From Marinobacter sp. (GTDB lineage: Bacteria > Pseudomonadota > Gammaproteobacteria > Pseudomonadales > Oleiphilaceae), in NCBI GenBank assembly GCA_018066865.1, contig JAGPVT010000155.1, forward strand, positions 1 to 61,439: a DNA stretch of 61,439 nt, written 5' to 3'. The notes below the pieces were generated by a model. That model saw only the letters and a list, made by a program, of their open reading frames with translations. It did no database searches and had not been told where the DNA came from. The position numbers and the translations under genes are program-made. Shown in pieces: positions 11,511-36,948 of the stretch (positions are counted from its first letter, which is position 1; every line of letters begins with the position of its first letter).

Positions 11511-11511
11511 G

Positions 11512-12555: not shown

Positions 12556-12591
12556 TGGATTTAACAACAAGAAGCCGTAAGGAGAAGACAC

Positions 12592-13800: not shown

Positions 13801-13808
13801 GACGCTGT

Positions 13809-18631: not shown

Positions 18632-18662
18632 CAGCGAAAGAGTCAGGCTGACTCTTTCGCTG
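18632..18662 (-). terminator. 15-bp perfect hairpin overlapping the paaX stop
   Basis: CAGCGAAAGAGTCAG and its exact complement, separated by one base, span the last codons and stop codon of paaX. No T-tract follows in either direction. It may end or stabilise the paaX transcript, or be a repeat that supplied the present C-terminus. Confidence 0.45.
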
Positions 18663-19614
18663 TTACTGCAACGCTACTTGTTACATTTTCTTCAGCCAGG
18701 CCGCCAAAGCGACGATAAAAGCCCGGTGTAGGGTCGGGCAGTGGGCCTGAAGCATTTTCCAGCAGGCTTGCCAGGTGCTTGTCAGAGCGGCTGTATATCG
18801 CCCGGTAGAGATTTCGACACAGCTGTTTGGCGCTGCGTCCTTCCCAGTCGCCTGGTAACAGTTCGTCCGGCAGCAAAGGATCTCGCAGCAGTATTTTGCG
18901 ATATTCGTGAATCAGCAGAATGCGCGCGGTAACACAGTCTTCCGGGGAGAGATTGTCGTTGGCGCTGAGTTCTCGCCACAGTGGCCGGAACTTCTCCAGA
19001 AAGCGTTTATAACGAAAGCCCAGTTCGTCCAGGTTCCAGCTTTCCTTGACCTGCCTGCGCAGAGCCCTCGGGCTGCGCTGCTCCAGTGGCTGGGTCTGCA
19101 TCACGATGGTGTCTTCCAGCGCGCCCCATTCCTGAAGCAGAGGCACCAGCTCGTTACGAGTGAAGCGCGGATGTTCCATTACGCCTGCTGCCATGCTGCC
19201 AAAACTCAGCCATTTCAGCTCTTCACGCACTTTGGCCCGGATTTCCGGTTCCAGCTGGTTGAGAAATACCAGGCACCAACTGCCGTTCCAATCATCGGTG
19301 CCGAGCGTGTATACGTGCTCAAATGCTTGCTGAAAGCGCCTCAGGCCGGCACCGGTAACGCTGTAATAGCTGCACCGGCCGACCTTTTCGGTTTGCAGCC
19401 AGCCTTCCTGAACCAGCCGGTAGACAGATGTACGGACAAGCCGCTCGCTCACGCCCATGGGGGTCAGAAGTTTCATCAGGCTGCCCAGCCAGACGTTTCC
19501 GCCGCGCGGGTGGAGGATATCGCCGTAGGTCGTAATGATCAGCGACCCAGCCCGTAAAGGGCGTTTTTGCTGGAAGTCCCGGATCAGACTATCGAGTTGT
19601 TGTTTGGCAGACAT
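18643..19614 (-). CDS. paaX: phenylacetate-degradation repressor PaaX
   Basis: Cytoplasmic DNA-binding repressor of 323 residues (E. coli PaaX is 316). The N-terminal winged-helix region carries RAGSLIITTYGDILHPRGGNVWLGSL and SERLVRTSVYRLVQEGWL; the rest is the PaaX central and C-terminal domain that binds phenylacetyl-CoA, the inducer in E. coli. It is divergent from the ABC operon, sharing a 469-base intergenic region with one operator copy. The C-terminus ends inside a perfect inverted repeat, so its last few residues may not be ancestral. Confidence 0.93.
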   Translation of the reverse strand: MSAKQQLDSLIRDFQQKRPLRAGSLIITTYGDILHPRGGNVWLGSLMKLLTPMGVSERLVRTSVYRLVQEGWLQTEKVGRCSYYSVTGAGLRRFQQAFEHVYTLGTDDWNGSWCLVFLNQLEPEIRAKVREELKWLSFGSMAAGVMEHPRFTRNELVPLLQEWGALEDTIVMQTQPLEQRSPRALRRQVKESWNLDELGFRYKRFLEKFRPLWRELSANDNLSPEDCVTARILLIHEYRKILLRDPLLPDELLPGDWEGRSAKQLCRNLYRAIYSRSDKHLASLLENASGPLPDPTPGFYRRFGGLAEENVTSSVAVTAKESA

Positions 19615-20083: not shown

Positions 20084-21244
20084 ATGTTCAAAAATATCAC
20101 GCGTCGCGCAAGCACGTTCGCGGCCATTGCAGCGGCCGGCTTGCTGGCAATAAACGTTCAGGCAGCCGAGCCTATCCGTATTGGTTCCTTTCTTTCGGTT
20201 ACTGGCCCTGCCTCGTTTCTGGGCGATCCGGAGCTGAAAACTCTTGAAATGTACGTTGAAAAAATCAACGCCGACGGTGGCGTACTGGGCCGTCAACTTG
20301 AGCTCATTCATTACGATGATGCAGGCAACGCCTCCAAAGCCCGCAACTTCGCAAGCCGGCTGATTCGTTCAGACCGCGTCGATATCATTGTCGGCGGCAG
20401 CACCACTGGCGCGACCATGGCGGCTGTACCAATGGTCGAGCAGGCGGGGGTTCCCTTCATTTCCCTGGCGGGCGCTGTTGTTATTACCAATCCGGTCAAG
20501 AAGTGGGTTTTCAAGACCCCGCAAACCGACCGTATGGCAGCAGAGCGCGTGCTGAATGATATGAAAGCGCGTGGTCTGACCAAGGTGGGTCTGATCTCGG
20601 GCACCGGTGGCTTTGGCAGCTCCGGACGTGAGCAAACGCTCGCAGCGGCCAAGGAAATGGGCGGAATCGAGATTGTTGCTGACGAGACCTACGGCGGCTC
20701 CGACACCGACATGACGGCGCAGCTCACCAACATCCGCGGCGCCGAGGGTGTGCAGACCATTCTTAACTTCGGTTTTGGCCAGGGCCCGGCCATCGTTACC
20801 CGTAACTACGCTCAGCTGGGTATTGAGCTTCCGTTCTATCAGTCCCACGGTGTTGCCTCTGATGGCTTCCTGGAACTGGCAGGTAGCAGTGCTGACGGCC
20901 TGAGATTGCCTGCGTCGCCATTGCTGGTGCCGGATTCACTGCCAGAGTCCGATCCACAAAAGCCGGTGGTTGAAGCCTACAAGAGCGAGTACGAAGCCCG
21001 CTGGAACGCCAAAGTGTCAACCTTTGGTGCTTATGCCTATGACGGCCTGATGCTGGCGGTTGAAGCCATCGAGAAAGCCGGTACCACAGACAAAGCCGCT
21101 GTACGTGATGCTCTTGAAACCATCCAGGGTCATGTGGGCGTTACCGGTACCTTCAATATGTCGGCCGATGATCACAACGGTCTGCAAGCCGATTCTTTCC
21201 GCATCCTGGAAGTTCAGGATGGCGGTTGGAACCTGATCAACTAA
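20084..21244 (+). CDS. ABC transporter periplasmic substrate-binding protein, system 2
   Basis: LivK-like (peripla_BP_6) protein of 386 residues with a signal peptide to about residue 27 (NVQAAEPIRIG). GSFLSVTGPASFLG, INADGGVLGRQLELIHYDDAGNASKA and VDIIVGGSTTGATMA are characteristic. GGGAGAACAAC precedes the start. It leads the livKHMGF-type operon under a PaaX-like operator, so phenylacetate or a related arylacetate is the inferred ligand. Sequence alone does not prove the ligand. Confidence 0.86.
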   Translation: MFKNITRRASTFAAIAAAGLLAINVQAAEPIRIGSFLSVTGPASFLGDPELKTLEMYVEKINADGGVLGRQLELIHYDDAGNASKARNFASRLIRSDRVDIIVGGSTTGATMAAVPMVEQAGVPFISLAGAVVITNPVKKWVFKTPQTDRMAAERVLNDMKARGLTKVGLISGTGGFGSSGREQTLAAAKEMGGIEIVADETYGGSDTDMTAQLTNIRGAEGVQTILNFGFGQGPAIVTRNYAQLGIELPFYQSHGVASDGFLELAGSSADGLRLPASPLLVPDSLPESDPQKPVVEAYKSEYEARWNAKVSTFGAYAYDGLMLAVEAIEKAGTTDKAAVRDALETIQGHVGVTGTFNMSADDHNGLQADSFRILEVQDGGWNLIN

Positions 21245-21320
21245 GCCATCCCCATCCGTACCACAGGTTGGAGGCGACCCTTAGGGGTTGCCGTCAACCG
21301 CTGCGCGAGCGGACCCGATT

Positions 21321-22196
21321 ATGTTCTCTGAATTCCTGCAGTACCTGTTTACCGGTATCACTATTGGTGCCACCTACGCCCTGATCGCTTTGGGCTTTAC
21401 GTTGATTTATAACGCCAGCCATGTGATCAACTTCGCCCAAGGCGAGTTCCTGATGATTGGCGGTATGGCGACAGTATCTTTGACTGCTATGGGTGTGCCC
21501 ATGCTGCTCGCGATTGTACTTGCTGTGGTCCTGGCGGGGGTACTTGGTATTGCCCTTCAGCGCTTGGCCATTGCACCCGCCAGGAATGCGGATGTGGTTA
21601 CGCTGATCATTATCACCATTGGTGCGTCCATCTTCATTCGTGGCCTGGCCCAGCTGGTGTGGGGCAAGGAATACCACGTAATGCCTAATTTCAGCAGCGA
21701 TGAGCCGATTCAGATTTTTGGTGCCGTACTGAATACACAGAGCCTTTGGGTACTGGGTGTTGGTGCGGTACTCGTAGCGGTGCTGGTGTACTTCTTTACC
21801 CGCACACTGACCGGGAAGGCGATCCTTGCTACCTCGATGAATAAAGATGCCGCTCGCCTGGTGGGTATTCGTACCCAGGTTGTGCTGATGCTGGCGTTCA
21901 TGGTGTCTGCGTTGCTGGGCTCCATAGCCGGTATTGTGGTGGCGCCGATTACCTTCACCTCCTATGACATTGGCATCATCCTCGGGCTGAAAGGCTTTGT
22001 GGCGGCGGCCATTGGTGGCCTCGGCAGCGGTGTGGGTGCCGTAGTCGGCGGCCTGGCTCTTGGTGTGGTTGAAGCCATGGCTGCGGGTTATCTGTCGTCT
22101 GACTACAAGGATGCGGTGGCCTTCTCGATGATTTTGGTGGTGCTGTTCTTCATGCCCCGGGGCCTGTTTGGCGCCAAAATTGTGGAGCGGGTGTGA
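21321..22196 (+). CDS. Liv-type ABC permease (LivH-like), system 2
   Basis: Inner-membrane permease of 291 residues with eight to nine hydrophobic segments; TGITIGATYALIALGFTLIY and NFAQGEFLMIGGM are LivH hallmarks. ATG 21321 lies after GAGCGGA and is preferred to an in-frame ATG eleven codons earlier. The following permease gene overlaps its stop codon. Confidence 0.87.
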   Translation: MFSEFLQYLFTGITIGATYALIALGFTLIYNASHVINFAQGEFLMIGGMATVSLTAMGVPMLLAIVLAVVLAGVLGIALQRLAIAPARNADVVTLIIITIGASIFIRGLAQLVWGKEYHVMPNFSSDEPIQIFGAVLNTQSLWVLGVGAVLVAVLVYFFTRTLTGKAILATSMNKDAARLVGIRTQVVLMLAFMVSALLGSIAGIVVAPITFTSYDIGIILGLKGFVAAAIGGLGSGVGAVVGGLALGVVEAMAAGYLSSDYKDAVAFSMILVVLFFMPRGLFGAKIVERV

Positions 22197-23203
22197 TGAT
22201 GGCCCGACTGTCGCAATTTCGTCTCAAGGGCCTGTTGTTTCTGGCCATCGCGGTGTTTGCCGTACCGCTGTTCATCTCCAACCCGTTTCATTATGGCCTG
22301 GCTACGCAAATCGCGTTGATTGCCGGTGCCGTTGTGGGCCTTAACCTGCTGGTGGGTTTCGCCGGCCAGATCAGCCTGGGCCATGCGGGCTTTTTCGGGC
22401 TCGGTGCTTATTTCAGCGCCATCATGACCAGCACTTACGGTTGGTCTGCCATTCCTGCGTTGATAGTCGGCGCCATTGTCGTGGCTATTATTGCCTGGGT
22501 TGTCGGTCGCCCGATTCTGCGCCTGAAAGGCCATTATCTTTCCATGGCCACCCTCGCGGTGGGCTTCATTATCGCGATTATCCTGAACAACGAGCGGGAA
22601 ATAACAGGCGGGCCGGACGGCATGCCGGTGCCCCCGTTTGATGTGTTCGGCTGGGAGCTCAGTGCCTTTGGCCAGTATTCCCTGTTTGGCATGGACATCA
22701 GCGGCGATCTCGCCTGGTATCTGTTTGCGGGTGTAGTGCTTCTGGCTGCCGTCTGGCTGGCCCAGAACCTGATTGATTCGCCTATTGGCCGAGCCTTGCG
22801 TTCCGTTCACGGCTCGGAAGTCGCGGCCAGTGTGGTGGGTGTAAACACCGCAAAATACAAGAGCCTGGTATTCGTAATCTCCGCCGTATACGCCAGTGTA
22901 ATGGGTGCGCTTTACGGACACTTTCAGGGCTTTATTACGCCCTCTGTCGCCAGTTTCGACTTTTCCATTCTGTTGATCACCATGGTGGTTCTTGGCGGCA
23001 TGGGCTCGACCATCGGTGTGATCATCGGCGCTGTGGTGCTGGAACTGTTGCCGCAACTGCTTGCCGATTTTCAGGAGATGGAAATGGTGTTATTTGGTCT
23101 GATCCTGATGCTGACCATGATTTTCATGCCCAAAGGTCTGCTGCCAACCGCTACGAACCTGCTTGCAAAACGACGCTCGAAGTCTGCCGGAGGTGACGCA
23201 TGA
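22196..23203 (+). CDS. Liv-type ABC permease (LivM-like), system 2
   Basis: Inner-membrane permease of about 335 residues. NLLVGFAGQISLGHAGFFGLGAY and RPILRLKGHYLSMATLAVGF are LivM signatures. Three consecutive start candidates (GTG, ATG, ATG) occur at 22193-22201; the ATG overlapping the TGA of the LivH-like gene is chosen. Its own stop overlaps the next start (ATGA), so the operon is tightly coupled. Confidence 0.87.
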   Translation: MMARLSQFRLKGLLFLAIAVFAVPLFISNPFHYGLATQIALIAGAVVGLNLLVGFAGQISLGHAGFFGLGAYFSAIMTSTYGWSAIPALIVGAIVVAIIAWVVGRPILRLKGHYLSMATLAVGFIIAIILNNEREITGGPDGMPVPPFDVFGWELSAFGQYSLFGMDISGDLAWYLFAGVVLLAAVWLAQNLIDSPIGRALRSVHGSEVAASVVGVNTAKYKSLVFVISAVYASVMGALYGHFQGFITPSVASFDFSILLITMVVLGGMGSTIGVIIGAVVLELLPQLLADFQEMEMVLFGLILMLTMIFMPKGLLPTATNLLAKRRSKSAGGDA

Positions 23204-23958
23204 CCGCTCTGGTGGAAGTCAATAATCTGTCCAAAGCGTTTGGCGGCGTACACGCTGTCGAAGGCGTGAGTTTTGCGGTGGATGCCGGCCAGGTGTATTC
23301 GGTTATCGGCCCAAACGGTGCCGGTAAAACCACGCTGTTCAACCTGATCACAGGCCTGTACACGCCCACCAGCGGTGAAGTGAAGCTGAACGGCGAAAGT
23401 ATCGCGAAACTACAGCCCAACCAGTTGGCAGAGCGGGGCATGTGCCGAACGTTTCAGCAGATGCAGATCTGTATGAACATGACGGCTATTGAAAACGTGA
23501 TGCTGGGCCGGCATCTGACTCTGAAAAGCAACTTGCTGACTACCCTGTTTCGTTTGCCTGCTCTTACCCGTGGTGAAAAAGCCGCGCGTCAGAAATCCGC
23601 TGAACTGATGGAGTTTGTGGGTTGTGGCGAGTACCTCGATACCGAAGCCTCGGCCATGTCCTATGGCGCGCTTAAACGGCTGGAAATTGCCCGTGCACTG
23701 GCCGCAGAGCCGAAAGTCGTCTTGCTGGATGAGCCGGCGGCTGGTCTGAACGCTGTGGAGACCGCGGCGCTGGAAGAACTGATCCGCAAGATTGCCGAGC
23801 AGGGCATTACGGTAATGCTGGTAGAGCATGACATGAAGCTGGTGATGGGTATTTCCGACCGTTTGCTGGTGCTTAACTACGGGCGCGTACTGGCGGAAGG
23901 TACGCCGGAACAGATTCGTGCAAACCCGGACGTGATTGCAGCCTACCTGGGCGGTTAA
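23200..23958 (+). CDS. Liv-type ABC ATPase (LivG-like), system 2
   Basis: Nucleotide-binding subunit of 252 residues: Walker A GPNGAGKTT, signature SYGALKRLEIARAL, Walker B VVLLDEPAAGLN, then MLVEHDMKLVMG. It should pair with the hemerythrin-LivF fusion encoded 21 bases downstream to power the LivHM-type channel. Length and motifs are normal. Confidence 0.88.
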   Translation: MTALVEVNNLSKAFGGVHAVEGVSFAVDAGQVYSVIGPNGAGKTTLFNLITGLYTPTSGEVKLNGESIAKLQPNQLAERGMCRTFQQMQICMNMTAIENVMLGRHLTLKSNLLTTLFRLPALTRGEKAARQKSAELMEFVGCGEYLDTEASAMSYGALKRLEIARALAAEPKVVLLDEPAAGLNAVETAALEELIRKIAEQGITVMLVEHDMKLVMGISDRLLVLNYGRVLAEGTPEQIRANPDVIAAYLGG

Positions 23959-23979: not shown

Positions 23980-25344
23980 ATGACACAGACACCGACCAAC
24001 GTCGCGCCTGAAGACAGCTACAGCCTGCAAGCCATCAGCACCATTGTTCAGGAACATCAGGCCCTGTGGCGCATACTGGATCTGCTGGATCAGCTCCAGC
24101 ACGATATGAACATCAATGAACAGAAGCCGGATGAAACGCTGTTCAGCACTATCTTCGACTACATTCAGCACTTTGCACGGCGAGTGCACAGTTCGCCCGA
24201 GGAAATTGTGCTGTACCGCCTGCTGGGAGAGAAGTCACCGGAAACCAAGCCCTTGCTCGACAAGCTTGCGCACGGCTATGTGATTGGTGATCAGAAGATC
24301 AATGAGTTGCGCCATCTTTTAATGGTGTGCATGGGGCAATGGCCGGATGGCCGGGAAGACTTCAGCCACGCACTGGCACGGTTTACCGAGGCGTTGCGCA
24401 AACACATCAAGAAAGAAGAAGGCGTGATCATTCCCCGGGCGCGCAAGCTCCTGAGTGAAGACGATTGGCGCCTGATTACCGAATCCCGGGATCAGTCCAA
24501 CGACCCGCTATTTGGCGAGCGGGTGCGGGACGAATTCCGTGAGTTGCGCCATCGAATTGTGAGTTACACGCCAGAACGCCTGGGCGGCCTGGGGCTACAC
24601 CATACGCCGCGCAGAACCGCACAGCACGCTAAAGAGGAAATGCTCTCTATCAAGGGCCTGAAGACCTCCTATGGCCAGATCGAAGCGCTCCACGGTGTTG
24701 ATATCCGTATCAACAGCGGTGAAATTGTTTCGTTGGTTGGTGCGAACGGTGCGGGCAAATCGACACTGCTGATGACGATTTCGGGCCTGCAGCCGACAGA
24801 CAGCGGCAGCATTAACTTTGAGGGTAAGGACCTGCTGAAAATGAGTACGGACCAGCGGGTCGCCAGTGGCATTGTCCAGGTACCCGAGGGTCGGCAGGTG
24901 TTCAAGGATCTGAGCGTTGAAGACAACTTGCTGTTGGGCGCCTACACCCGTGGGCGTAGCCAGGAAGTGGAAGACGACATAGAACGCATGTATGAGAAAT
25001 TTCCCATACTGCGCCAGAAGCGCCGCAACCTGGCGGGTGAACTGTCCGGCGGTCAGCAACAGATGCTGGCAATGGGCCGTGCGCTGATGGCCAAACCCAG
25101 ACTGTTGCTGCTGGACGAGCCCAGCATGGGGCTGGCACCGCTGATTATTGAAGAGATCTTCAACATCGTCAAACAGCTTAAAAACGAAGGTATGACCATC
25201 TTTCTGGTGGAGCAGAACGCCTCCCAGGCGCTTGCGCTTGCCGACCGTGGTTACGTGCTGGAGACTGGCCGAGTGGTCATAGAAGGCTCGGGTCGTGAGC
25301 TTCTGAGTAACGAGAAAGTACGTGAGGCGTATCTGGGTATGTGA
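23980..25344 (+). CDS. hemerythrin - LivF fusion ATPase, system 2
   Basis: One uninterrupted frame of 454 residues joins two domains. Residues about 15-165 form a hemerythrin (HHE) four-helix domain with all expected iron ligands: His26, His70 with Glu74, His98, and His142 with Glu146. Residues about 222-454 are a complete LivF ATPase: Walker A GANGAGKST (254-262), signature LSGGQ (355-359), Walker B LLLLDE (375-380). Ordinary LivF is about 235 residues without this extension. GAGG two bases before an internal ATG (codon 221) could allow separate LivF synthesis but is too close to be efficient. Hemerythrins bind O2 reversibly, so oxygen- or iron-dependent control of uptake is inferred. Confidence 0.88.
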   Translation: MTQTPTNVAPEDSYSLQAISTIVQEHQALWRILDLLDQLQHDMNINEQKPDETLFSTIFDYIQHFARRVHSSPEEIVLYRLLGEKSPETKPLLDKLAHGYVIGDQKINELRHLLMVCMGQWPDGREDFSHALARFTEALRKHIKKEEGVIIPRARKLLSEDDWRLITESRDQSNDPLFGERVRDEFRELRHRIVSYTPERLGGLGLHHTPRRTAQHAKEEMLSIKGLKTSYGQIEALHGVDIRINSGEIVSLVGANGAGKSTLLMTISGLQPTDSGSINFEGKDLLKMSTDQRVASGIVQVPEGRQVFKDLSVEDNLLLGAYTRGRSQEVEDDIERMYEKFPILRQKRRNLAGELSGGQQQMLAMGRALMAKPRLLLLDEPSMGLAPLIIEEIFNIVKQLKNEGMTIFLVEQNASQALALADRGYVLETGRVVIEGSGRELLSNEKVREAYLGM

Positions 25345-25409: not shown

Positions 25410-27470
25410 TTACTCCGGCTCTTTAGCGCCTTCTTTTTTGGCGACCAACGTCAGAATATCGTAGCTGGCAACCAGCTCGTCGTTCTGATTGGTCACCTGA
25501 ACATCCCACACAACCACGCCTTGCGGATGGCCATCCGGTGATGTGCGTCCCTGATCTATCTTGCGCTTGCAGGTCAGGCGGGCGCGAATGGTATCGCCCG
25601 GCGCGACCGGCTCAATGAAGCGCAGCGTGTCCAGACCGTAGTTCGCCAGTACCGGGCCTTCGCCGGGATCAACGAACATGCCGGCGGCCGCAGACAGCAC
25701 GAAGTAGCCGTGTGCGATGCGCTTACCGAACTGGCTGTTGCGGGCGGCAATCTCATCAAAATGCATGTAGAAATGATCGCCAGACAGGCAGCCGAAGTTC
25801 ACCAGATCTGCTTCAGTAACCGTGCGCCGGTGTGTCAGCAGTGACTGGTTAATCTGCAGGTCTTCAAAGTGATAACGGAACGGGTGTATCTCGTTCTCGA
25901 TAACCTTGGCACCACGAATGTATTCGCCGGTGACCGCGGCCAGCATGGTGGGCGAGCCCTGAATAGCTGTGCGTTGCAGGTAGTGATACACGGCGCGGAT
26001 GCCACCGAGCTCTTCACCACCTCCAGCGCGCCCCGGGCCACCGTGTTTGAGCATCGGTAGGGGAGATCCGTGGCCTGTGGATTCTTTTGCAGCTTCTGCA
26101 TCCAGTAGGTGCAAACGGCCATGATAGGCAGCCAGCGCCGGAGCCAGTTTGGCAATGGTGATCGGGTCGCGGGTGGTTACCGTTGTAACCAGCGAGCCGC
26201 GGCCCTTGGCGACCAGCTCAACCGCTTCATCCAGGGTGTCGTAGGGGATAATCGTGGCCACGGGACCGAAGGCTTCAATGTCGTGAGCGCCACAGCCGTT
26301 CTCCGGGTTACGGCACAGCAGCAGGTGCGGTTCTATGAACGCGCCTTTTTCGGTGCCTTCACCCGTTGGCTTGAAGCTGCCGTCGCCGCCCAAAACCAGT
26401 TCGCTGGTCTTCAGCAGTTCCTGGATGTTGGCTTTGACATCTTCCAGTTGATCGATAGAAGCCAGGGCGCCCATGCGCACGCCTTCGACTGAGGGATCGC
26501 CTGTGGTGATTTTCGACAACCGCTCTTTGAGTTTGTCACAAACCGCCTGCACCTGTTCCTGAGGCACCATGATCCTGCGGATCGCGGTACACTTTTGACC
26601 GGCTTTTGCCACCATTTCGCGGCCGACTTCCCGCACGAACAGATCAAACTCTTCGTGTTCCGGTGTTACATCCGGAGCCAGGAGTGCACTGTTCAGTGAG
26701 TCAGCTTCGGCGTTGAACGGAATGGAGCGATTGATGATGTTGGGGTGAACACGCAACATGCGAGCGGTTTTGGCAGAACCTGTGAAGGTCACGACGTCCT
26801 GCTCTTCCAGGTGCTCGAACAGATCGCCGGTGCTGCCAATGATCAACTGCAGGCTGCCTTCCGGCAGAGCGCCGGATTCGTGCATCAGGCGCACGGCCAG
26901 TTCGGTTACGTAGCAGGTGGACGTCGCAGGCTTCACAATGGAGGGCATGCCCGCCAGGAATGTGGGCGCAAACTTTTCCAGCATGCCCCACACCGGGAAG
27001 TTGTAGGCGTCGATATGTACAGCTACACCGCCACGGGGCACCATAATGTGGGTGCCGGCAAAGTGATTGTTTTTGCCCAGTGGCGTTACCGGGCCTTCGT
27101 GTACCACGTTGCCTGACGGCAGCTCACGGCGGCCCATGCTGGCGTAGGAAAACAGCGTGCCGAAGCCACCATCGATATCAATACCGTTATCCGCTTTGCT
27201 GGAACCGGTATGCATTGAGAGGGCATAGAGCTCTTTTTTGTGCTCCTGCAGGTACATCGCCATGGTTTTGAGGGCCAGGGCGCGCTCCTGAAAATCCATG
27301 GCCAACAGGTTTTTCCCGCCGACCTTGCGGCCGTATTCAACGGCCTTTTTAAAGTCCAGGGTATCGTCATGCGTGTGCGCGACAATCTCGCCGTTGATAG
27401 CGCTGGGCAGGGCTTTGGCTTGTTGCTCACCCACCCATTCACCGGCAATAAAGCTTTTAAGAACTGACAT
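25410..27470 (-). CDS. paaZ: oxepin-CoA hydrolase / semialdehyde dehydrogenase PaaZ
   Basis: Bifunctional cytoplasmic ring-opening enzyme of 686 residues (E. coli 681). The N-terminal aldehyde dehydrogenase has the catalytic Cys294 in GQKCTA and Glu255 in FNAEADS. The C-terminal MaoC-type hydratase has [14 protein letters not shown], with its Asp/His pair, and [12 protein letters not shown]. It hydrolyses oxepin-CoA and oxidises the resulting aldehyde to 3-oxo-5,6-dehydrosuberyl-CoA with NADP+. Last gene of the paaABCDEZ operon, 20 bases after paaE. Confidence 0.95.
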
Positions 27471-27490
27471 TTACAAAAACTCCAGAATTA

Positions 27491-28567
27491 CTATTCGTCG
27501 TAGTCGAGAGTGACCTTGTCACTGACGGGGTAGCATTGGCACGACAACACGTAGCCTGCTTCCACTTCGTAGTCTTCCAGGGCAAAGTTTTGATCCATCT
27601 CCACTTCGCCTTCCACTACCTTGGCACGACAGGTGGAGCACACGCCGGCTTTGCAGGAATAAGGCAGATCGGCACCTTCGGCGTTACCGGCATCGAGGAT
27701 GCTCTTGGTGTCGCGTACAAGGTCGAAGGTCAGTGAGCGGCCATCTGCTTTAACCGTTACAACGCTGACCGCTTTCGGATCGATTCTGGTTTCAGACCGG
27801 TCTTTGCGAGCCTGAGGCACGCCGCCGGCAGGGGTAAAGAGTTCGTAGTGAACTTTTGACTTGTCGAGGCCGTGACGTTCAAGCGAGTCCTGCACGGTTT
27901 CGGTCAGCATCTGGGGGCCACAAAGGAACGCACCGGTCAGGTTTTTGGCGTCAATCCAGTGATCAAACAACTGATCACACTTATTGCCATCGATGCGACC
28001 GTTGTACAGGTCTATGTCCTGTTCTTCCCGGGTGAAGATGTACACCAGGTTGAAGCGGGTCATGTATTCGTTTTTAAGATCCTGCAGCTGATCCCGGAAC
28101 ATGGTGCTGCTGGTGCCCTTGTTGCCATAGAACAAAGTGAAATGGCTCTTGGGCTCGGTTTCCAGTGTCGTCTTTATGATGGACAGGATCGGCGTGATGC
28201 CACTGCCCGCAGCGACTGCCAAGTAGTTGCCTTCACGCTCCGGGTCCAGATCAATGGAGAAGTGGCCTTGTGGCGGCATGACGTCCAGCGTGGAACCTGG
28301 CTTCAGTTGCTCGTTGGCAAAGCTGGAGAATACGCCACCGGGTACACGCTTGATGGCAATGCGCAGCTCTTGATCATTTACGCTTGAGCAAATGGAGTAG
28401 GTGCGGCGTACTTCTTCGCCGCCCACTTTGGTCCGCACCACAAGGTGCTGACCCTGCTTGTACTTGAACTTATCCGCCATGTCATCGGGCAGATCAAAGC
28501 ACAGGGATACGGCGTTTCTTGTTTCCGGTCTGACCTCTTTGAGGGCCAGTGAGTAGAATTTATTCAT
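27491..28567 (-). CDS. paaE: phenylacetyl-CoA epoxidase reductase PaaE
   Basis: Electron-transfer subunit of 358 residues. The N-terminal ferredoxin-NADP reductase part has RTYSICSS (flavin binding) and AVAAGSGITPILSI (NADPH side); the C-terminal plant-type 2Fe-2S ferredoxin has CKAGVCSTC and a later LSCQC. It passes electrons from NADPH to the PaaA di-iron centre. The open frame extends 46 codons upstream over paaD; MNKFYSLALKEV at 28567, 13 bases after the paaD stop, is the normal PaaE start. Confidence 0.95.
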   Translation of the reverse strand: MNKFYSLALKEVRPETRNAVSLCFDLPDDMADKFKYKQGQHLVVRTKVGGEEVRRTYSICSSVNDQELRIAIKRVPGGVFSSFANEQLKPGSTLDVMPPQGHFSIDLDPEREGNYLAVAAGSGITPILSIIKTTLETEPKSHFTLFYGNKGTSSTMFRDQLQDLKNEYMTRFNLVYIFTREEQDIDLYNGRIDGNKCDQLFDHWIDAKNLTGAFLCGPQMLTETVQDSLERHGLDKSKVHYELFTPAGGVPQARKDRSETRIDPKAVSVVTVKADGRSLTFDLVRDTKSILDAGNAEGADLPYSCKAGVCSTCRAKVVEGEVEMDQNFALEDYEVEAGYVLSCQCYPVSDKVTLDYDE

Positions 28568-28580
28568 GATCGTATCGGCT

Positions 28581-29138
28581 CTATATGCATTTGAAGTAGT
28601 CGAAGGGTTCACGGCAATCAAGGCAGCGATAAAGCGCCTTGCAGGCAGTAGAGCCAAACTCGCTGATGCGCTCGCTGTTCTTGCTGCCGCACAGTGGGCA
28701 AGCAATCACTTCATCGGCGCCCAGAAGGCTCATTTTGCTGGCACTGCCCTGGGGCGGTGCTATGCCAAAAGCCCGGAGTTTTTCCTGGCCTTCCTCGGTT
28801 ATCCAGTCTGTGGTCCAGGCCGGCGTTAACACGCGATTGATCTGCGGGTCGCGAATGCCGGCTGCGCGCAGGGCTTCCTCGATCAGCTCTTCAATCAGCT
28901 CGGTTGCGGGGCAGCCGGAGTAGGTGGGTGTTACATCCACGCTCAGGTGTTTGCCATCCCAGCTCAGGCTGCGAACGATACCTAGCTCCACTACGCTGAC
29001 CGCAGGTACTTCCGGATCTTTGACATTATCCAGCAAGGCCCAGATGGCGTCTTCTGTCAGCAGTTCCGGGTGGGCGTTGGCCGGCACTCTGTCGCTGGCA
29101 ATCAGTACGTCTACAGACGATGGCTCGCGTTCATTCAC
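28581..29138 (-). CDS. paaD: phenylacetate degradation protein PaaD
   Basis: Protein of about 185 residues, MIP18/SufT-like (residues 25-115, with KDPEVPAVSVVELGIV and TPTYSGCPA) followed by a zinc-ribbon tail (CPLCGS ... CLDC). Such proteins act in iron-sulfur or metal-centre maturation; in the Paa system PaaD is needed in vivo for an active epoxidase, probably by maturing PaaE or the di-iron site. GTG 29138 with GGGAG upstream is preferred over a TTG seven codons earlier. Confidence 0.92.
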   Translation of the reverse strand: MNEREPSSVDVLIASDRVPANAHPELLTEDAIWALLDNVKDPEVPAVSVVELGIVRSLSWDGKHLSVDVTPTYSGCPATELIEELIEEALRAAGIRDPQINRVLTPAWTTDWITEEGQEKLRAFGIAPPQGSASKMSLLGADEVIACPLCGSKNSERISEFGSTACKALYRCLDCREPFDYFKCI

Positions 29139-29169
29139 CGGAAGTACTCCCTTTATCAATCAGACCGGC

Positions 29170-29934
29170 TTACCAGGTCGTCGCATCCGGGTAGGCGCGA
29201 GGCAGGAACTGCATCACGGCCAGGATGTGCCCCAGGTGCTCGGTGTGCTCGCCGCGCTTGCCGCCCATGTACATCCAGGCGTCTTCCTCGCCGGTTGTCA
29301 GGGTGGCTTGTGCTGCGACTTCGCGCACCATGCCGAACCAGTCCTGCTTCAGTTGCTCAGGATCAGGGCCAATGCCCGCCTCGAACATGGCCTGGTCGAT
29401 TTCATCCGGAGTTACCAGCTCACCGGTGAAGCGCCATAGCAGGTTGAAGGCATCCTGAATGCGGCGGTGGCTTTCTTCGGTGCCGTCGCCCATGCGCTTT
29501 ACCCACTCAGACGAGCGGCGCAGGTGATAGGTAGCTTCTTTGACGGCCTTGGCTGCAATGTTGGCAACACGCTCATCGCTGGCGTTCACCAGGCTTTTCA
29601 TTGTGAAGTAATGCCACACATCGAAGAAAAACTGGCGAGCTATGGTGACGGCGTAGTCGTCATTCGGCTGCTCCACCATCAGCAGGTTGCGATAGTCGTG
29701 GGCATCCCGCAGAAAGACCAGTTTGTCGGCGTCGCGGCCGTCGTCGATCAGTTCAGCGGCGTACTCGTACCAGTTGCGGGCCTGGCCCACCAGGTCGAGC
29801 GCCACATTCATCACTGCCAGTTCTTCTTCAACCGCCGGGGCCTTGCCCGTCAATTCGCTGAGACGCTGGCCCAGAATCATGTCGGAGTCCGCCAGGCGGA
29901 GCAGGTATTCCTGTAAAACTTGTTGCTGTGTCAT
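29170..29934 (-). CDS. paaC: phenylacetyl-CoA epoxidase structural subunit PaaC
   Basis: Ferritin-like helical protein of 254 residues (E. coli 248). It pairs with PaaA in the epoxidase core and lacks an active di-iron site. Typical segments are LRLADSDMILGQRLSELTGKAP and YMGGKRGEHTEHLGHILAVMQFLPRAYP near the C-terminus. It lies between paaB and paaD with short gaps. Confidence 0.94.
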   Translation of the reverse strand: MTQQQVLQEYLLRLADSDMILGQRLSELTGKAPAVEEELAVMNVALDLVGQARNWYEYAAELIDDGRDADKLVFLRDAHDYRNLLMVEQPNDDYAVTIARQFFFDVWHYFTMKSLVNASDERVANIAAKAVKEATYHLRRSSEWVKRMGDGTEESHRRIQDAFNLLWRFTGELVTPDEIDQAMFEAGIGPDPEQLKQDWFGMVREVAAQATLTTGEEDAWMYMGGKRGEHTEHLGHILAVMQFLPRAYPDATTW

Positions 29935-29944
29935 GGGTCGCTCC

Positions 29945-30226
29945 TTACATGTGCCCGACTTCGTCAGGCAGCTTGTAGAAGGAAGCGTGCCGGTAAACCT
30001 TGTCTTCAGATGGATCGAACAAAATTTCTTTCTCGTCCGATGCGGAAGCTGTGATGGTTTCAGACGGAACCACCCAGATGCTTACCCCTTCGTTACGACG
30101 GGTGTACAGCTCGCGGGCGTTTTCCATGGCCATCTCATTGTCGGCAGCGTGTACGCTACCCACGTGCTTGTGGTTAAGGCCGTGCTTGCTGCGTACGAAA
30201 ACTTCGTAAAGGCGCCATTCAGACAT
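29945..30226 (-). CDS. paaB: phenylacetyl-CoA epoxidase subunit PaaB
   Basis: Small subunit of 93 residues that bridges PaaAC dimers. WRLYEVFVRSKHGLNHKHVGSVHA is the family hallmark. The second of two nearby ATGs (30226) is chosen because AGGAG lies seven to eight bases upstream of it, whereas the first ATG is only two bases away from that site. Confidence 0.93.
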   Translation of the reverse strand: MSEWRLYEVFVRSKHGLNHKHVGSVHAADNEMAMENARELYTRRNEGVSIWVVPSETITASASDEKEILFDPSEDKVYRHASFYKLPDEVGHM

Positions 30227-30241
30227 TGTCATTTCTCCTGT

Positions 30242-31237
30242 TTACGCGGCTTTGGCTGCGCGCTGTTTTTGTTTTGCGGCGTAGGCAACGGCGGCTTCCC
30301 GTACCCAAGCACCCTCATCAATTGCTTTGCGGCGAGTGGAAATCCGTTCATGGTTGCAGGGACCATCGCCCTTGAGCACGTCGTAGAACTCTTTCCAGTC
30401 GATGTCGCCGAAATCGTAGTGACCCCGCTCTTCGTTCCATTTCAAATCCGGGTCAGGCACCGTGCAGCCGAGGAATTCGAGCTGTGGAATGGTTTGGTCA
30501 ATAAACATCTGGCGCAGTTCGTCGTTACTCTTGCGCTTGATCTTCCAGACCATCGATTGCTGGGAGTTGGGGGATTCGTCGTCGTGCGGGCCAAACATCA
30601 TCAGTGCCGGCCACCACAGACGGTTGATGGAGTCCTGCACCATGTCCTTCTGCTCTTGCGTGCCTTCACGCATCATATCCAGCAGAATCTGGTAACCCTG
30701 ACGTTGGTGGAAGCTCTCTTCCTTACAGATGCGCACCATGGCACGGGAATAGGGGCCATAAGACGTACGCTGCAACACCACCTGGTTTACGATGGCCGCG
30801 CCATCAACCAGCCAGCCCACTGCGCCCATGTCGGACCAGTTCAAAGTCGGGTAGTTAAAGATGCTTGAGTACTTGGCTTTGCCATCATGCAGCTTCTGGA
30901 TTTCTTCATCGCGATCAGCGCCCAGAGTTTCCATGGCGCTGTACAGGTACAGGCCGTGGCCGGCTTCGTCCTGAATCTTGGCCATCAGCTGCAGCTTGCG
31001 CTTGAGCGTAGGTGCGCGGGTTACCCAGTTGCCTTCCGGCAGCATGCCGACGATTTCCGAGTGGGCGTGCTGGGAGATCTGGCGGATCAACGTTTTACGA
31101 TAGCCGTCGGGCATCCAGTTCTTGGCTTCAATCTTGGTTTCAGCGTCTACCTTTTCCTGGAAGTCCCTTTCCTCGGGAGACATCTCTTCCAGGGTCTTGA
31201 GGCGCTTTGTACCGGTATCAACCATCTGTGCGTACAT
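30242..31237 (-). CDS. paaA: phenylacetyl-CoA 1,2-epoxidase catalytic subunit PaaA
   Basis: Di-iron oxygenase subunit of 331 residues, first gene of paaABCDEZ. It epoxidises the ring of phenylacetyl-CoA with O2. Iron-ligand motifs DEAGH (ExxH type) and EESFHQRQG are present. The open frame begins 18 codons earlier, but MYAQMVDTG after GGAGAG is the usual start. Its promoter, 80-110 bases upstream, carries the best-matching PaaX-type operator. Confidence 0.96.
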
Positions 31238-31317
31238 AACTCTCTCCGAATCTGACTTGTTGTTGTCTGCGTTCCGTGAACGGCAGTGCACCGTGACGAA
31301 TCACGAGCTATGACTTC

Positions 31318-31364
31318 ATACTATATGATACTGAATAAATATCAAGGAGAAGTATTCTGTATCA
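31318..31364 (-). promoter_or_regulatory. PaaX-type operator on the paaA promoter
   Basis: TGATAC (31326-31331) and GTATCA (31359-31364) with exactly 27 bases between, inside a longer imperfect palindrome (ATGATACTGAATA at 31325-31337 against TATTCTGTATCAT at 31353-31365, 12 of 13 pairs). On the minus strand TTGATA (31340-31345) and TAGTAT (31318-31323) are 16 bases apart and place one half-site in the spacer. A single extra GTATCA lies at 31386-31391. Confidence 0.8.
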
Positions 31365-31512
31365 TGTTTGTCTTGTAAGACTTTTGTATCATCTTTAACT
31401 GATTGAAAATAAACAACTAAAAATTTTCTATTAATGATTGCTTTTGATTTTCATAAACGTGAAGAAAAAATAAATGACCGGGCGTTGTGGTTGTTTGCCC
31501 GGGCTACAGGAA

Positions 31513-32820
31513 TCAATCCTTGCGACGGTCAAATACCCGCTTGGCCTTGCCCTCAGACCGGCTCATGGTTCCCGCATCCTGCACCTGTATTTTGGTGCTG
31601 ATGCCGATGTAGGACTTGATGTGGTGTGCCAGCTCTTTGGCAGTGTTTTCTTTGATGTCCGCTCCTTTTGCGTCCGCTTTCAGCTCAACCCGGACATCCA
31701 CGCAATCCAGGTTGCCTTTCTTGTACACCTCGATTTCGTAGTGAGGTGCGAGGGCGCGACACTTGAGCACCTGTTCTTCAATCTGTGTAGGGAATACGTT
31801 TACCCCACGGATAATGAGCATGTCGTCGCTGCGACCGGTGATTTTATCGATACGGCGCATCGGGCGGGCCGTGCCTGGCAGCAGGCGGGTAAGGTCGCGT
31901 GTGCGGTAACGCAGTACCGGCATGGCGACTTTTGTGAGTGAGGTGAACACCAGTTCGCCGTATTCGCCGTCGGGAAGCACTTCACCGGTTTCCGGGTTGA
32001 TGATTTCCGGATAAAAGTGGTCTTCCCAGATGGTCGGGCCATCTTTGGTTTCCAGGCACTCCATGCCAACGCCCGGACCCATCACCTCGGAGAGGCCGTA
32101 GATGTCCAGCGCCTGGATGTCGAGACGATCTTCCAGTTCTGTGCGCATTTCGTTGGTCCAGGGCTCGGCTCCGAAAATGCCCAGACGCAGCGGCAGCTTC
32201 TTGGGGTCAATGCCCTGGCGGTCTATTTCATCCGCAATGTTCAGCATATAGGAGGGCGTGACCATGATGATGTCGGGCTCAAAATCCTTGATCAGCTGAA
32301 CCTGTTTCTCGGTCTGGCCGCCCGACATGGGAATAACAGTACAGCCGAGGCGCTCGGCACCGTAGTGGGCACCAAGGCCGCCGGTGAACAGGCCATAACC
32401 ATAGGCAATATGAATCTTGTCCCCGGCGCTACCACCGCCGGCACGGATGGAGCGGGCGACTATGTCAGCCCAGGTTTCAATGTCACTTTGGGTGTAGCCC
32501 ACGACGGTGGGTTTGCCGGTGGTGCCGCTGGAGGCGTGTACCCGGACGACTTTTTTCATGGGGACTGCGAACATGTTAAACGGGTAGTTTTCCCGCAGGT
32601 CGTCTTTTCCGGTAAACGGAATCCTGGCGATGTCTTCCAGGCTGTTGATGTCCATCGGCTTCAGGCCAATGGCGTCAAACGCTTTGCGGTAATGCGGCAC
32701 ATTGGTATAGGCATGCCAAACGCTCCAGCGCAGGCGTTGCAGCTGCTCATGGCGCAGTTCGTCCACGCTGGCCGTTTCCATCCGGTCCAGTTTTCCGAGT
32801 TTATGCATGGGTAGATTCAT
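31513..32820 (-). CDS. paaK: phenylacetate-CoA ligase PaaK
   Basis: Cytoplasmic ligase of 435 residues, normal PaaK length. The ATP-binding loop is ASSGTTGKPTVVGYT; the C-terminal domain has DDMLIIRGVNVFP. It converts phenylacetate to phenylacetyl-CoA, the first step of the pathway and the source of the PaaX inducer. AGGA lies before ATG. It is separated from paaJ by 114 bases holding a GC-rich hairpin, so it may be partly uncoupled from paaGHIJ. Confidence 0.95.
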   Translation of the reverse strand: MNLPMHKLGKLDRMETASVDELRHEQLQRLRWSVWHAYTNVPHYRKAFDAIGLKPMDINSLEDIARIPFTGKDDLRENYPFNMFAVPMKKVVRVHASSGTTGKPTVVGYTQSDIETWADIVARSIRAGGGSAGDKIHIAYGYGLFTGGLGAHYGAERLGCTVIPMSGGQTEKQVQLIKDFEPDIIMVTPSYMLNIADEIDRQGIDPKKLPLRLGIFGAEPWTNEMRTELEDRLDIQALDIYGLSEVMGPGVGMECLETKDGPTIWEDHFYPEIINPETGEVLPDGEYGELVFTSLTKVAMPVLRYRTRDLTRLLPGTARPMRRIDKITGRSDDMLIIRGVNVFPTQIEEQVLKCRALAPHYEIEVYKKGNLDCVDVRVELKADAKGADIKENTAKELAHHIKSYIGISTKIQVQDAGTMSRSEGKAKRVFDRRKD

Positions 32821-32883
32821 GATCGCTTCCTGTCTTGTTCTTGTTGCTCCGGTTTGCAGCCAGGCAAGTTTTTGTTCGTGTTA

Positions 32884-32907
32884 CCGGCCCGGGATTGCCC
32901 GGGCCGG
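32884..32907. terminator. GC-rich hairpin between paaJ and paaK
   Basis: Perfect 10-bp stem CCGGCCCGGG with a 4-base loop (ATTG). No T-tract on the minus strand. Next to it, 32911-32940 holds three copies of an 11-base repeat (AATCACTC...), the last including the paaJ stop codon. It may attenuate transcription into paaK or protect the paaGHIJ message end. Confidence 0.5.
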
Positions 32908-32934
32908 TTCAATCACTCTCTAATCACTCTCCAA

Positions 32935-34182
32935 TCACTCGGCGCTGTCGACGCGCTCGATAATCAGCGCAATGCCCTGGCCTACGCCGATGCACATGGT
33001 GCACAGGGCATAACGGGCACTTTGGCCCTGCTGATGACGGCGCTCCAGTTCATTCAAAGCCGTGGTCACAAGGCGTGCTCCGCTCATGCCCAAGGGGTGG
33101 CCCAAAGCAATAGCGCCACCGTTAGGGTTTACGTGTTCGGCATCATCCGGCAGGCCCAGATCACGCAGCACGGCCAATGCCTGAGCGGCGAAGGCTTCGT
33201 TAAGCTCGATCACGTCCATATCGGCCAGCTCAAGACCCGCGGTCTTGAGTACCTTGCGGGTAGCTGGCGCGGGGCCCATGCCCATAATGCGTGGTTCAAC
33301 ACCGGTTGTGGCCATGGCGACAACCCGGGCGCGGGGTTTGAGGTTGTGTTGCTTCAGGGCATCGCCGCTGGCCAGCAACAGAGCGCAGGCGCCGTCGTTT
33401 ACGCCGGACGCGTTGCCTGCGGTCACGCTGCCGTTTTCACGGAAGGGTGTTCCCAAGCTCGCAAGCTTTTCCAGGCTGGTTTCCCGGGGGTGTTCATCGG
33501 TATCAATAACGAGCGGATCCTGCTTGCGGCGGGGCACGCTTACCGGCACGATTTCATTATCAAAGCGGCCTGCTTTCTGGGCTGCAGCGGTGCGCTGCTG
33601 GCTGCGCAAGGCGAAAGCATCCTGATCTTCACGGGAAATACCGAAGTCAGCGGCGACGTTCTCGGCTGTCTCGGGCATTGAATCAATGCCGTACTGCTTT
33701 TTCAGCAACGGATTAACGAAGCGCCAGCCGATGGTGGTGTCGAACATTTCGGCTTTACGACTGAAAGCGGAATCGGCCTTGCCCATCACGAAAGGTGCGC
33801 GTGACATGGATTCCACTCCACCCGCCAGCATCAGTCCGGCTTCACCCGTACGCAATGCGCGGGCAGCGCTGCCGATGGCGTCCATACCGGAACCGCACAG
33901 GCGGTTGATGGTGGCGCCCGGTACATCAATCGGCAAACCTGCCAGCAGCAATGACATACGAGCTACGTCGCGGTTGTCTTCGCCGGCCTGGTTGGCGCAG
34001 CCGTACAGCACGTCGTCGATAGCAGACCAGTCCAGTTCGCTGTGGCGTTCTTTCAGTGCCTTCATGGGAATGGCACCCAGGTCGTCAGCGCGCACGGTTG
34101 CAAGGGCGCCGCCGTAACGGCCAACCGGTGTACGTACAGCATCTACTATGTAGGCATCTTGTAGGCGTTTTTCGTTACTCAT
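32935..34182 (-). CDS. paaJ: 3-oxoadipyl-CoA/3-oxo-5,6-dehydrosuberyl-CoA thiolase PaaJ
   Basis: Thiolase of 415 residues. The nucleophile is in [10 protein letters not shown], the histidine in [20 protein letters not shown], and the second cysteine in [10 protein letters not shown]. It performs the two beta-oxidation thiolyses of the pathway, ending in succinyl-CoA and acetyl-CoA. It is about 15 residues longer than typical at the N-terminus ([11 protein letters not shown]). Its start overlaps the paaI stop by four bases. Confidence 0.94.
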
Positions 34183-34637
34183 TGATCATTCTCCGACTGG
34201 ATGACTTCGCCGCGTACCTGGTAGGATTTGCCGCGAAACAGGGCTATTACATGGCCGTTCTGGTTGGTGACAGTAATGTCGTATACACCGGTGCGGTTGC
34301 CACGGGACTGCTCAACCGCGTTGGCTGTGAGTAGATCGCCTTCACGGGCTCCAAGCATGTACTCAATGGAGCAACCGGATGCCACCGTCGCTTTATTGTA
34401 ACTGTTGCAGGCAAAGGCAAAGGCCGAATCAGCCAGGGTAAACAGATAGCCACCATGGCAGGAGCCGTGGCCCTGAATCATGGTGCTGGTGACCGGCATT
34501 GTAACCGTGGCTTTGCCCGGGGCTACGTGGGTAATCTTCATGCCAAGGTCGCGACTGGCCAGGTCCCGGTCGTACATGGATTCGGCGCAGTCCTGTGCCA
34601 GTTTTTGCGCATCGGGTGCGTGGTGTTCGTTGCTCAT
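34179..34637 (-). CDS. paaI: hydroxyphenylacetyl-CoA thioesterase PaaI
   Basis: Hot-dog thioesterase of 152 residues. [24 protein letters not shown] carries the catalytic Asp of the PaaI family. It rescues CoA from dead-end ring-hydroxylated phenylacetyl-CoA thioesters. Four-base overlaps with both paaH and paaJ show a tightly coupled operon. Confidence 0.94.
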
Positions 34638-36154: not shown

Positions 36155-36156
36155 GC

Positions 36157-36948
36157 TCAGTTCCCCTTGAATTCGGGTGCGCGCTTCTCCATGAAAGCGG
36201 CAACGCCTTCACGGTAGTCGTCAGTGCGGCCAGCCTGCCGCTGAAGATCCCGCTCTACCAACACCTGCTCTTCAAAACTGTTGTCGGCGCTGGCGTGCAG
36301 AGCCCGCTTGATCATCGCCAGGCCTTTGGTGGGCTGGGTAGCGAAATGGCGGGCCAGTTTCATCGCTTCATCCTCCAGTGCGTCGTCCTCTACGCACTGC
36401 CAGATCATGCCCCACTGTTCCGCTTTTTCAGCACTGAGCTTGTCACCCAGCATAGCCAGGCCTTTGGCCCGGGCCATTCCGACTGAGCGCGGCAGGGTCC
36501 AGGTGCCACCCGAGTCCGGGATAAGGCCGATTTTACAAAAAGCCTGTACAAAGTTTGCTGAGCGAGCTGCCAACGTGATGTCGCAGGCGAGCGCAATGTT
36601 CGCGCCGGCGCCGGCGGCAACGCCATTAACGGCGCAGATAACCGGCATGGGAAGATCCCGAATCGCCTGCAGCATCGGGTTGTAGTATGTCTCAATAGAG
36701 TACCCAAGATCCGGAGCCTCGGCGCCCGGATTTACGTTGCGATCCGAGAGATCCTGGCCCGCACAGAAACCGCGGCCATTACCGGTAAGCAGCATGACCC
36801 GTACGGTGTGATCGTTGCGGATGGTCTTCAGTGCGGCGCGCATCTGCTCATGCATCTCAACGTTAAAGCTGTTGAGGCTCTTGGGGCGGTTCAGGGTGAC
36901 TTTGGCAATTCCCTGGTCGATATCGAGAAGCACACTCTGCTCGGTCAT
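36157..36948 (-). CDS. paaG: ring-1,2-epoxyphenylacetyl-CoA isomerase PaaG
   Basis: Crotonase-family isomerase of 263 residues that turns the epoxide into oxepin-CoA. GRGFCAGQDLSDR and IGLIPDSGGTWTLPR are PaaG hallmarks, and the tail FMEKRAPEFKGN is typical. Although the open frame starts 42 codons earlier, MTEQSVLLDI at 36948 with AAGGA seven bases upstream is the accepted start. It leads paaGHIJK. No paaF gene follows, unlike E. coli. Confidence 0.94.
   Translation of the reverse strand: MTEQSVLLDIDQGIAKVTLNRPKSLNSFNVEMHEQMRAALKTIRNDHTVRVMLLTGNGRGFCAGQDLSDRNVNPGAEAPDLGYSIETYYNPMLQAIRDLPMPVICAVNGVAAGAGANIALACDITLAARSANFVQAFCKIGLIPDSGGTWTLPRSVGMARAKGLAMLGDKLSAEKAEQWGMIWQCVEDDALEDEAMKLARHFATQPTKGLAMIKRALHASADNSFEEQVLVERDLQRQAGRTDDYREGVAAFMEKRAPEFKGN

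Follow-up and report, generated by a model that had tools for sequence, protein, structure and literature searches.

Within the HHE superfamily the O2-binding hemerythrins form a separate, monophyletic subgroup; the iron site of FBXL5 does not bind oxygen (PMC4919030). The ligand motif of the oxygen-binding proteins is given in PMC9388753 as H-HxxxE-HxxxH-HxxxxD; the same paper describes the P1B-5-ATPases of A. cellulolyticus and S. meliloti (Nia), which carry a hemerythrin-like domain with the motif H-HxxxE-HxE-HxxxxD. In the HLP protein of M. kansasii a Tyr serves as iron ligand, the site consisting of four His, two Glu and one Tyr (excerpts of PMC8913304).

Here we analyse a window of 61,439 nt of Marinobacter DNA (the whole stretch; all positions refer to it unless another locus is named) in which an HHE domain and a LivF-type ATPase share one open frame. 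The O2-binding motif is found in neither of the two types of this fusion: relatives with an intact site show H-HxxxE-H-HxxxE, and the window protein shows H26, H70xxxE74, Y100 and H142xxxE146, with no HxxxH on helix 3 and no HxxxxD on helix 4.

The fusion gene and its product

The fusion frame (23980-25344, + strand) has 454 codons, from an ATG at 23980, preceded by a purine-rich stretch, to a stop codon at 25342-25344. Its N-terminal part belongs to the HHE/hemerythrin superfamily: residues 18-154 match Pfam Hemerythrin (PF01814) with 44.5 bits against a cut-off of 25.3, and the same model matches 16 of 16 genus members of the fusion alignment A2 (E ≤0.01). The domain as a whole (23980..24483, + strand; residues ∼14-168) is marked out by this match, by the AlphaFold2 model and by its dN/dS value. 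It is followed by a tail and linker defined from alignments (24484..24639, + strand; residues 169-220; the NDPLFG...FRELRH...GGLGL stretch), whose DPLFG core also occurs in most free-standing HHE proteins. The nucleotide-binding domain (NBD; 24640..25341, + strand; residues 221-453) is complete, with Walker A (GANGAGKST), signature (LSGGQQQ) and Walker B (LLLLDEPS) all present. Residues 237-382 match Pfam ABC_tran with 112.4 bits. The best NCBIfam match, LivF PRK11614 (residues 219-453), scores 289 bits, below the equivalog cut-off of 441; judged by these scores, the ATPase is LivF-like but lies outside that equivalog.

Two AlphaFold2 models, of the window protein and of its Arhodomonas relative, had pLDDT of 82.7 and 82.1 and pTM of 0.57 and 0.55, respectively. 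Both have four long N-terminal helices, with helix 2 broken near its motif, and a standard ATPase fold. Since the helix-2 break is present in both models, it does not discriminate the window type from the canonical type. The helices predicted for the HHE part of the window protein span residues 14-45, 52-69 with 77-85, 87-119 and 125-157; block pLDDT is 69-95 over residues 11-170 and falls below 50 at 172-181 and 209-217. In the fold comparison (VIA-align) the aligned rows covered only the ATPase part; in the viral fold library the top entries were mainly ABC ATPases, with nothing telling for the HHE part. A PDB sequence search with the window HHE part alone gave no match, and one with profile A3 of the HHE part gave 20 weak or spurious matches, among them 2p0n and FBXL5.

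The importer operon and its neighbourhood

The fusion is the last gene of an operon on the + strand that encodes, in order, a substrate-binding protein (20084..21244; Pfam Peripla_BP_6), a LivH-type permease (open frame 21288..22196, with its start probably at the in-frame ATG 21321; relatives are mostly 291 aa), a LivM-type permease (22193..23203; Pfam and NCBIfam profile matches) and a LivG-type ATPase (23200..23958; profile matches), the partner NBD, which has no HHE domain. The earlier assignment of a Liv-type importer is borne out. The solved chains nearest to the substrate-binding protein are 3sg0, 4dqd and 7ylt, some of which we take to bind aromatic acids. The substrate of the importer is probably an aromatic acid.

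Divergent from the operon lies a gene for the PaaX regulator (18643..19614, − strand; TIGR02277, above cut-off). Convergent with the operon is a paa set (25410..37074, − strand) that comprises paaZ, E, C, A, K, thiolase, H and G with intervening genes; the genes named all score above cut-off (TIGR02278, TIGR02160, TIGR02158, TIGR02156, TIGR02155, TIGR02430, TIGR02279 and TIGR02280). A consensus for the PaaX operator matched 21 times where 18.3 matches were expected, and so gave no signal. Among the 65 fused loci described below, all four Liv partners (substrate-binding protein, LivH, LivM and LivG) are present in 60, some loci being cut by contig ends; PaaX is present in 53, and PaaA, PaaE or PaaZ in 47, with none of these three in the remaining 18.

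The window holds a second Liv-type operon (9804-16417; LivG, LivH, LivM, substrate-binding protein and LivF, assigned by similarity and position), whose LivF is free of any HHE domain; its last gene encodes a FadD11-like AMP-binding ligase, and an NhaD antiporter gene comes next. Past the paa set and on its strand, genes for a CHASE-domain hybrid histidine kinase and a PAS-GGDEF-EAL response regulator occupy 38082-44410. In Marinospirillum minutulum (locus L118, 2646-4586) a NIT-HAMP chemoreceptor gene adjoins PaaX and the importer; three further loci (L109, L114 and L122) have genes of similar length at this place, which suggests that taxis is linked to the same regulon.

Distribution and origin of the fusion

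The genus sample comprised 58 genomes, 37 from Marinobacter and 21 others. The HHE segment was matched at ≥67% identity, in frames of 461-535 codons, in 23 of the 37; the 21 others yielded four weak HHE matches only (19-30% identity, frames of 199-303 codons). The fusion was read directly in the window; of the other 22 matched genomes, 20 were read too and carry it, and two (G002 and G017) are assigned by match and frame length. Nineteen same-genus rows (the window and 18 of the 20 regions) aligned collinearly at 452-456 aa.

A wider scan of 84,980 species genomes with the HHE alignment and two tail peptide patterns matched 154 stretches, from which 68 relatives were obtained. The fusion is encoded at 65 of these 68 loci, in Marinobacter, Mangrovitalea, Marinospirillum, Vreelandella, a Halomonas MAG, Arhodomonas, Ectothiorhodospira, Halorhodospira, Thiorhodospira and other MAGs. 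Two of the 65 frames are odd: L111 ends early (387 aa) and L155 starts late (421 aa). With 65 of 68 related loci fused and 19 same-genus rows collinear, the fusion is neither a chance nor an assembly join; these counts, the single open frame and the Pfam matches confirm the in-frame union of an HHE domain with a complete LivF that a sequence-only reading had described.

Genomes outside the 65 loci add further fusions of the canonical type. One of them, with an intact ligand set, is on plasmid AZO_p1 of Azospirillum lipoferum 4B (tblastn; one of two plasmid records at E ≤1e-80); it was left out of the site-residue counts. A sample of the phylum (398 genomes) gave 39 genomes that match profile A3 at E ≤1e-15; among the listed places, a frame of fusion length was present in the four from the genus and in no other. 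Another class of the phylum, probably Alphaproteobacteria, was sampled with 385 genomes: 29 matched, and no LivF fusion was seen at the loci examined (L224-L252). Unfused operons of the same order were found in five of nine genomes at E ≤1e-82, with LivF 57-62% identical; no paa epoxidase gene was seen in the four unfused-operon regions read.

Fusions with the window type of site, which have Tyr in place of the helix-3 His (see below), make one clade in both the LivF tree (39 rows; support 98/95) and the HHE tree (51 rows; 100/100); the stem of this clade in the HHE tree is long, with 1.01 changes per column. Canonical-type fusions are unresolved among unfused LivF in the LivF tree. In the HHE tree one split (100/100) sets 21 fused rows and two free ones apart from the 28 remaining free rows. 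A single change to the fused state occurs in just 6% of bootstrap trees; the bootstrap had not settled, and long branches, including that of the fused group, meet in this tree. A single origin of the canonical and Tyr fusions is supported by neither tree. In two distant genomes stand-alone HHE genes lie a few genes behind unfused Liv-type genes: L218 has a LivF-like gene and a 583-aa gene weakly like PaaG, then a stand-alone HHE gene (9345-9932), and L253 has LivF-like, AMP-ligase-like and thiolase-like genes, then an HHE frame from 9040. HHE genes and Liv operons may thus associate repeatedly.

An altered metal site

Three groups were aligned for the site table: window-type rows (66), fusions of the canonical type (six) and free-standing HHE proteins (30). 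The window-type rows are not independent, being mostly from Marinobacter, with two of them (L080 and L150) identical; the free-standing proteins were picked by their match to the fusion profile and so represent the nearest kin of the fusion rather than a sample of the superfamily.

Two of the four helices keep their ligands. His26 on helix 1 (24055..24057, + strand) is present in 65 of 66 window-type rows (L155 has a gap), in all six other fusions and in all 30 free HHE proteins. On helix 4 (24403..24417, + strand) both His142 and Glu146 are invariant in the 66 rows; His142 is found in all relatives, and Glu146 in 6/6 other fusions and 29/30 free proteins. Helix 2 is less well kept. In the alignment its site reads His70-S-S-P-Glu74-Glu75 in the window (24187..24204, + strand), the HHPKED of canonical-type fusions being lost. 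Position 70 is His in 55 of 66 window-type rows, Gln in 10 and Arg in one. At position 74 no more than 11 rows have Glu, the rest having Thr (38), Asn (7), Asp (5) or another residue (5); the relatives have His70 and Glu74 throughout (6/6 and 30/30 for each). Position 75 is Glu or Asp in all 66 rows.

A further change is on helix 3, where the alignment places the ligand column at residue 100 and not at 98. Residue 100 (24277..24279, + strand) is Tyr in 66 of 66 window-type rows and His in all 36 canonical rows (six other fusions and 30 free proteins). His98, two residues before it, is His in 17 of 66 window-type rows and in none of the six other fusions or the 30 free proteins. As these columns hold the canonical ligands in 6/6 other fusions and, depending on the column, in 29 or 30 of the 30 free HHE proteins, the site is altered and not merely misaligned. 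Among 22 non-redundant window-type rows (<90% identity, L155 excluded), Tyr100, His26, His142 and Glu146 are each kept in 22/22, His70 in 17/22 and Glu74 in 2/22; 36 of the 155 domain columns are invariant in this set, those of His26, Tyr100, His142 and Glu146 among them.

The full canonical set H-HxxxE-H-HxxxE is therefore lacking in the window protein, which has Tyr100 at the helix-3 column, and so are the conserved iron ligands of bacterial hemerythrin-domain sensors. What had been called a complete HHE di-iron domain keeps four of its proposed ligands (His26, His70, His142 and Glu146); His98 is no ligand, Glu74 is poorly kept and the helix-3 place is taken by Tyr. On the plain reading of the aligned columns, an intact HHE site was rebuilt in the lineage of the window, and the protein would not be a complete di-iron hemerythrin.

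A site rebuilt in this manner might hold no metal, the HHE fold serving as a scaffold or as a binding site for a ligand or protein, for example in acyl-CoA feedback or in docking of a partner subunit. Such a module would account for the loss of both the helix-2 HHPKED and the helix-3 His across the window type, on its long stem, and for Gln or Arg at position 70 in 11 of 66 rows, and it agrees with the strong selection that the domain still experiences in the Marinobacter type. However, His26, Tyr100, His142, Glu146 and Glu147 are invariant, among the 36 fixed columns, and we see no obvious need for them without a metal, although conserved polar residues of the HHE domain could be kept for reasons of fold. 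We regard a metal-free module as a serious but rather doubtful explanation. A remodelled iron site in turn has to contend with the Ectothiorhodospira-type rows, which also lack His70 and are left with few ligands.

In Marinobacter sp. X15-166B (locus L117, 9950-11314) the helix-2 motif is RGSAEE, with Arg for His70, and paa genes adjoin the fusion; His70 is thus not needed for the link to paa genes.

Selection and the internal start

Codon 221 is ATG in 52 of 66 window-type rows and GTG or TTG in four; in the other 10 it is CTG, ATC, TTA, CTA or ATA. The thought that the protein might always be made from an internal start at this codon, raised in the sequence-only reading as an outcome that would speak against its proposal, fails, because these 10 rows have no common start codon there. 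As a sole product the codon-221 form is ruled out by the same rows; in the window, translation from its internal ATG (AAAGAGGAA-ATG) may still yield a second product in minor amounts.

Rates of substitution were compared for pairs with dS of 0.1-1.2. Over the 56 rows of the Marinobacter type the median dN/dS was 0.081 for the HHE domain (293 of 1540 pairs), 0.087 for the tail (250 of 1540) and 0.067 for the ATPase (420 of 1540). The HHE domain is hence under strong purifying selection in this type. In the Ectothiorhodospira type (eight rows) the values were 0.31, 0.20 and 0.18 (16, 20 and 14 of 28 pairs, respectively); here the HHE domain evolves faster than the NBD, as far as these few pairs go. 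From the selection and the codon-221 results it follows that the HHE domain is a maintained part of the protein, at least in the Marinobacter type.

These values also bear on the idea that the fusion has little effect, the NBD being an ordinary LivF and the N-terminal domain a tolerated relic. The transporter is otherwise ordinary, and the same operon exists without HHE, with the LivF identity given above; but a relic would hardly show a dN/dS of ∼0.08 in the Marinobacter type, and the His26-bearing N-terminal part is lacking in only one of 65 fused frames, so that a mere passenger appears highly improbable. That one frame, L155 of Thiorhodospira sibirica (10052-11317), also has no recognised Liv partners in 20 kb; this copy of the fusion is possibly decaying.

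Association with the phenylacetate pathway

Within the genus sample the link between fusion and PaaA is exact: PaaA scored over the family cut-off in the same 23 of 37 genus genomes that carry the fusion, and in two of the 21 others. Of the 20 genus regions read, 15 have paaZ directly behind the fusion, with PaaX beside it as well; in four, inserted genes intervene, and in one (G004, where paaA is ∼50 kb away) paaZ lies outside the stretch.

Beyond the genus, PaaA was sought in the genomes of 24 of the 65 fused loci (all 20 not labelled Marinobacter and four Marinobacter). It was over cut-off in 14 of them; the same model scored over cut-off in 3 of 14 control genomes. Of the ten fused genomes without it, six belong to Ectothiorhodospira and one each to Halorhodospira and Thiorhodospira; the other two are MAGs and may be incomplete. 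Ectothiorhodospira, Halorhodospira and Thiorhodospira are anoxygenic phototrophs. In another set of seven genomes four had PaaA over cut-off, and G444 (the Halorhodospira already counted), G445 and G141 were without. PaaA is present but distant from the fusion in Marinospirillum and Mangrovitalea. Canonical-type fusions in Arhodomonas, G476 and G436 adjoin paaA, C and E genes; that of Azospirillum lipoferum is part of a Liv operon, and the 19 kb read there contain one 23% PaaE-like match but nothing like paaA. All ten entries of the PaaA-less genera, as well as G445, have a PaaK-like ligase of 565-588 bits (curated cut-off 646); since weaker matches to the PaaK model are common (10 of 14 controls score), this only leaves open an aromatic acid as substrate in these genera too.

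The proposed tie to the aerobic phenylacetate pathway is accordingly upheld within the genus and breaks down elsewhere, in eight named genomes. The expectation that homologues occur only together with the aerobic aromatic pathway fails with these Ectothiorhodospira, Halorhodospira and Thiorhodospira genomes, which have the fusion without PaaA; this is one of the outcomes that the sequence-only reading had itself named as refuting its proposal.

The sequence-only reading had suggested that an O2-binding di-iron hemerythrin gates the uptake of phenylacetate by oxygen. Several of the above observations agree with it, namely the coincidence of fusion and PaaA in exactly 23 of 37 genus genomes, the paaA, C and E genes adjoining the canonical-type fusions of Arhodomonas, G476 and G436, and PaaA in 14 of the 24 tested genomes of fused loci. 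The site itself does not: the O2-binding motif is absent, the helix-3 His has become Tyr and Glu74 is variable. The eight phototroph genomes with the fusion and without PaaA, and the Azospirillum lipoferum fusion with no paaA-like gene in 19 kb, also stand against it. Oxygen binding and oxygen-gated uptake were thus not sustained, and we now consider them improbable.

DISCUSSION

The interpretation that we tentatively prefer, with somewhat less than even confidence, is that the HHE domain is a regulatory domain whose rebuilt iron site tunes the LivF ATPase. LivF, which shares the ATPase role with LivG in a HAAT importer linked in the genus to the PaaX-controlled phenylacetate pathway, carries a predicted four-helix HHE domain at its N-terminus; the domain would be kept there as a regulatory module. 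In the lineage of the window the helix-3 His has given way to an invariant Tyr and the helix-2 Glu has become dispensable, with His26, His142 and Glu146 fixed. The resulting iron centre, possibly tyrosinate-ligated and mono- or di-nuclear, might sense redox, reactive oxygen or NO, or iron state, and the signal would change LivF ATPase activity or LivF-LivG pairing and thereby aromatic-acid uptake. With Tyr at the place of a key His, such a regulatory role is probably to be preferred over a simple oxygen gate.

A narrower version holds that the fusions are a class of metal-sensing importer ATPases not described before. In one clade the iron site would have gained a tyrosinate; by responding to redox, NO or iron state it would directly throttle the import of an aromatic acid that is degraded with the help of a di-iron oxygenase, the intact-site form being ancestral. 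So specific a history we consider unlikely.

Should the domain prove to regulate the ATPase, it would provide a direct post-translational link from the redox or iron state of the cell to substrate uptake. Canonical-site fusions, Tyr-site fusions and close unfused operons are natural controls; because nature supplies all three forms, the role of the rebuilt site is directly testable.

We know of no such sensor domain on branched-chain-type importers. Among the papers listed in searches of the open-licence PMC literature, no title or abstract describes an ABC importer that carries a hemerythrin or HHE domain, and the word ‘ABC’ is absent from the main texts of two surveys (PMC2556348 and PMC4919030), the 56 architectures of the latter being given in a figure. 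The fusion joins a known set, that of hemerythrin-superfamily domains fused to effector or transport proteins; as far as the listed titles and abstracts go, HHE-LivF is an unreported form of it. Closest in this set are the P1B-5-ATPases, in which, as here, a cytoplasmic hemerythrin-superfamily domain is fused to the energising part of a transporter (parts of PMC9388753); unlike the window protein they are P-type metal pumps with the domain at the C-terminus, whereas the window has an N-terminal domain, with Tyr on helix 3, on the ATPase of an ABC importer. DcrH, Bhr-DGC and Bhr-HD-GYP likewise join a sensor domain and a functional domain in one chain, but they keep the H-HxxxE-HxxxH-HxxxxD ligands (same parts of PMC9388753), which the window protein lacks.

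Like M. kansasii HLP, the window protein has a Tyr at its putative iron site; HLP is a stand-alone protein, the likeness is drawn at the level of the superfamily, and the canonical columns of the window offer three His, two Glu (Glu74 being unconserved) and one Tyr instead of the HLP set. RIC/YtfE and FBXL5 are of the HHE superfamily too, and differ from the window type in that the latter has Tyr for the helix-3 His; the ligand pattern of YtfE and FBXL5 is presumably H-HxxxE-H-HxxxE, shared with the canonical-type fusions, and to our knowledge neither RIC/YtfE nor FBXL5 is fused to an ABC ATPase. As a model of how the fusion may work, a comparison can be made with MalK, MetN, ModC and the CBS domains of OpuA, where an extra domain on the NBD tunes transport; those regulatory domains are C-terminal and sense other ligands.
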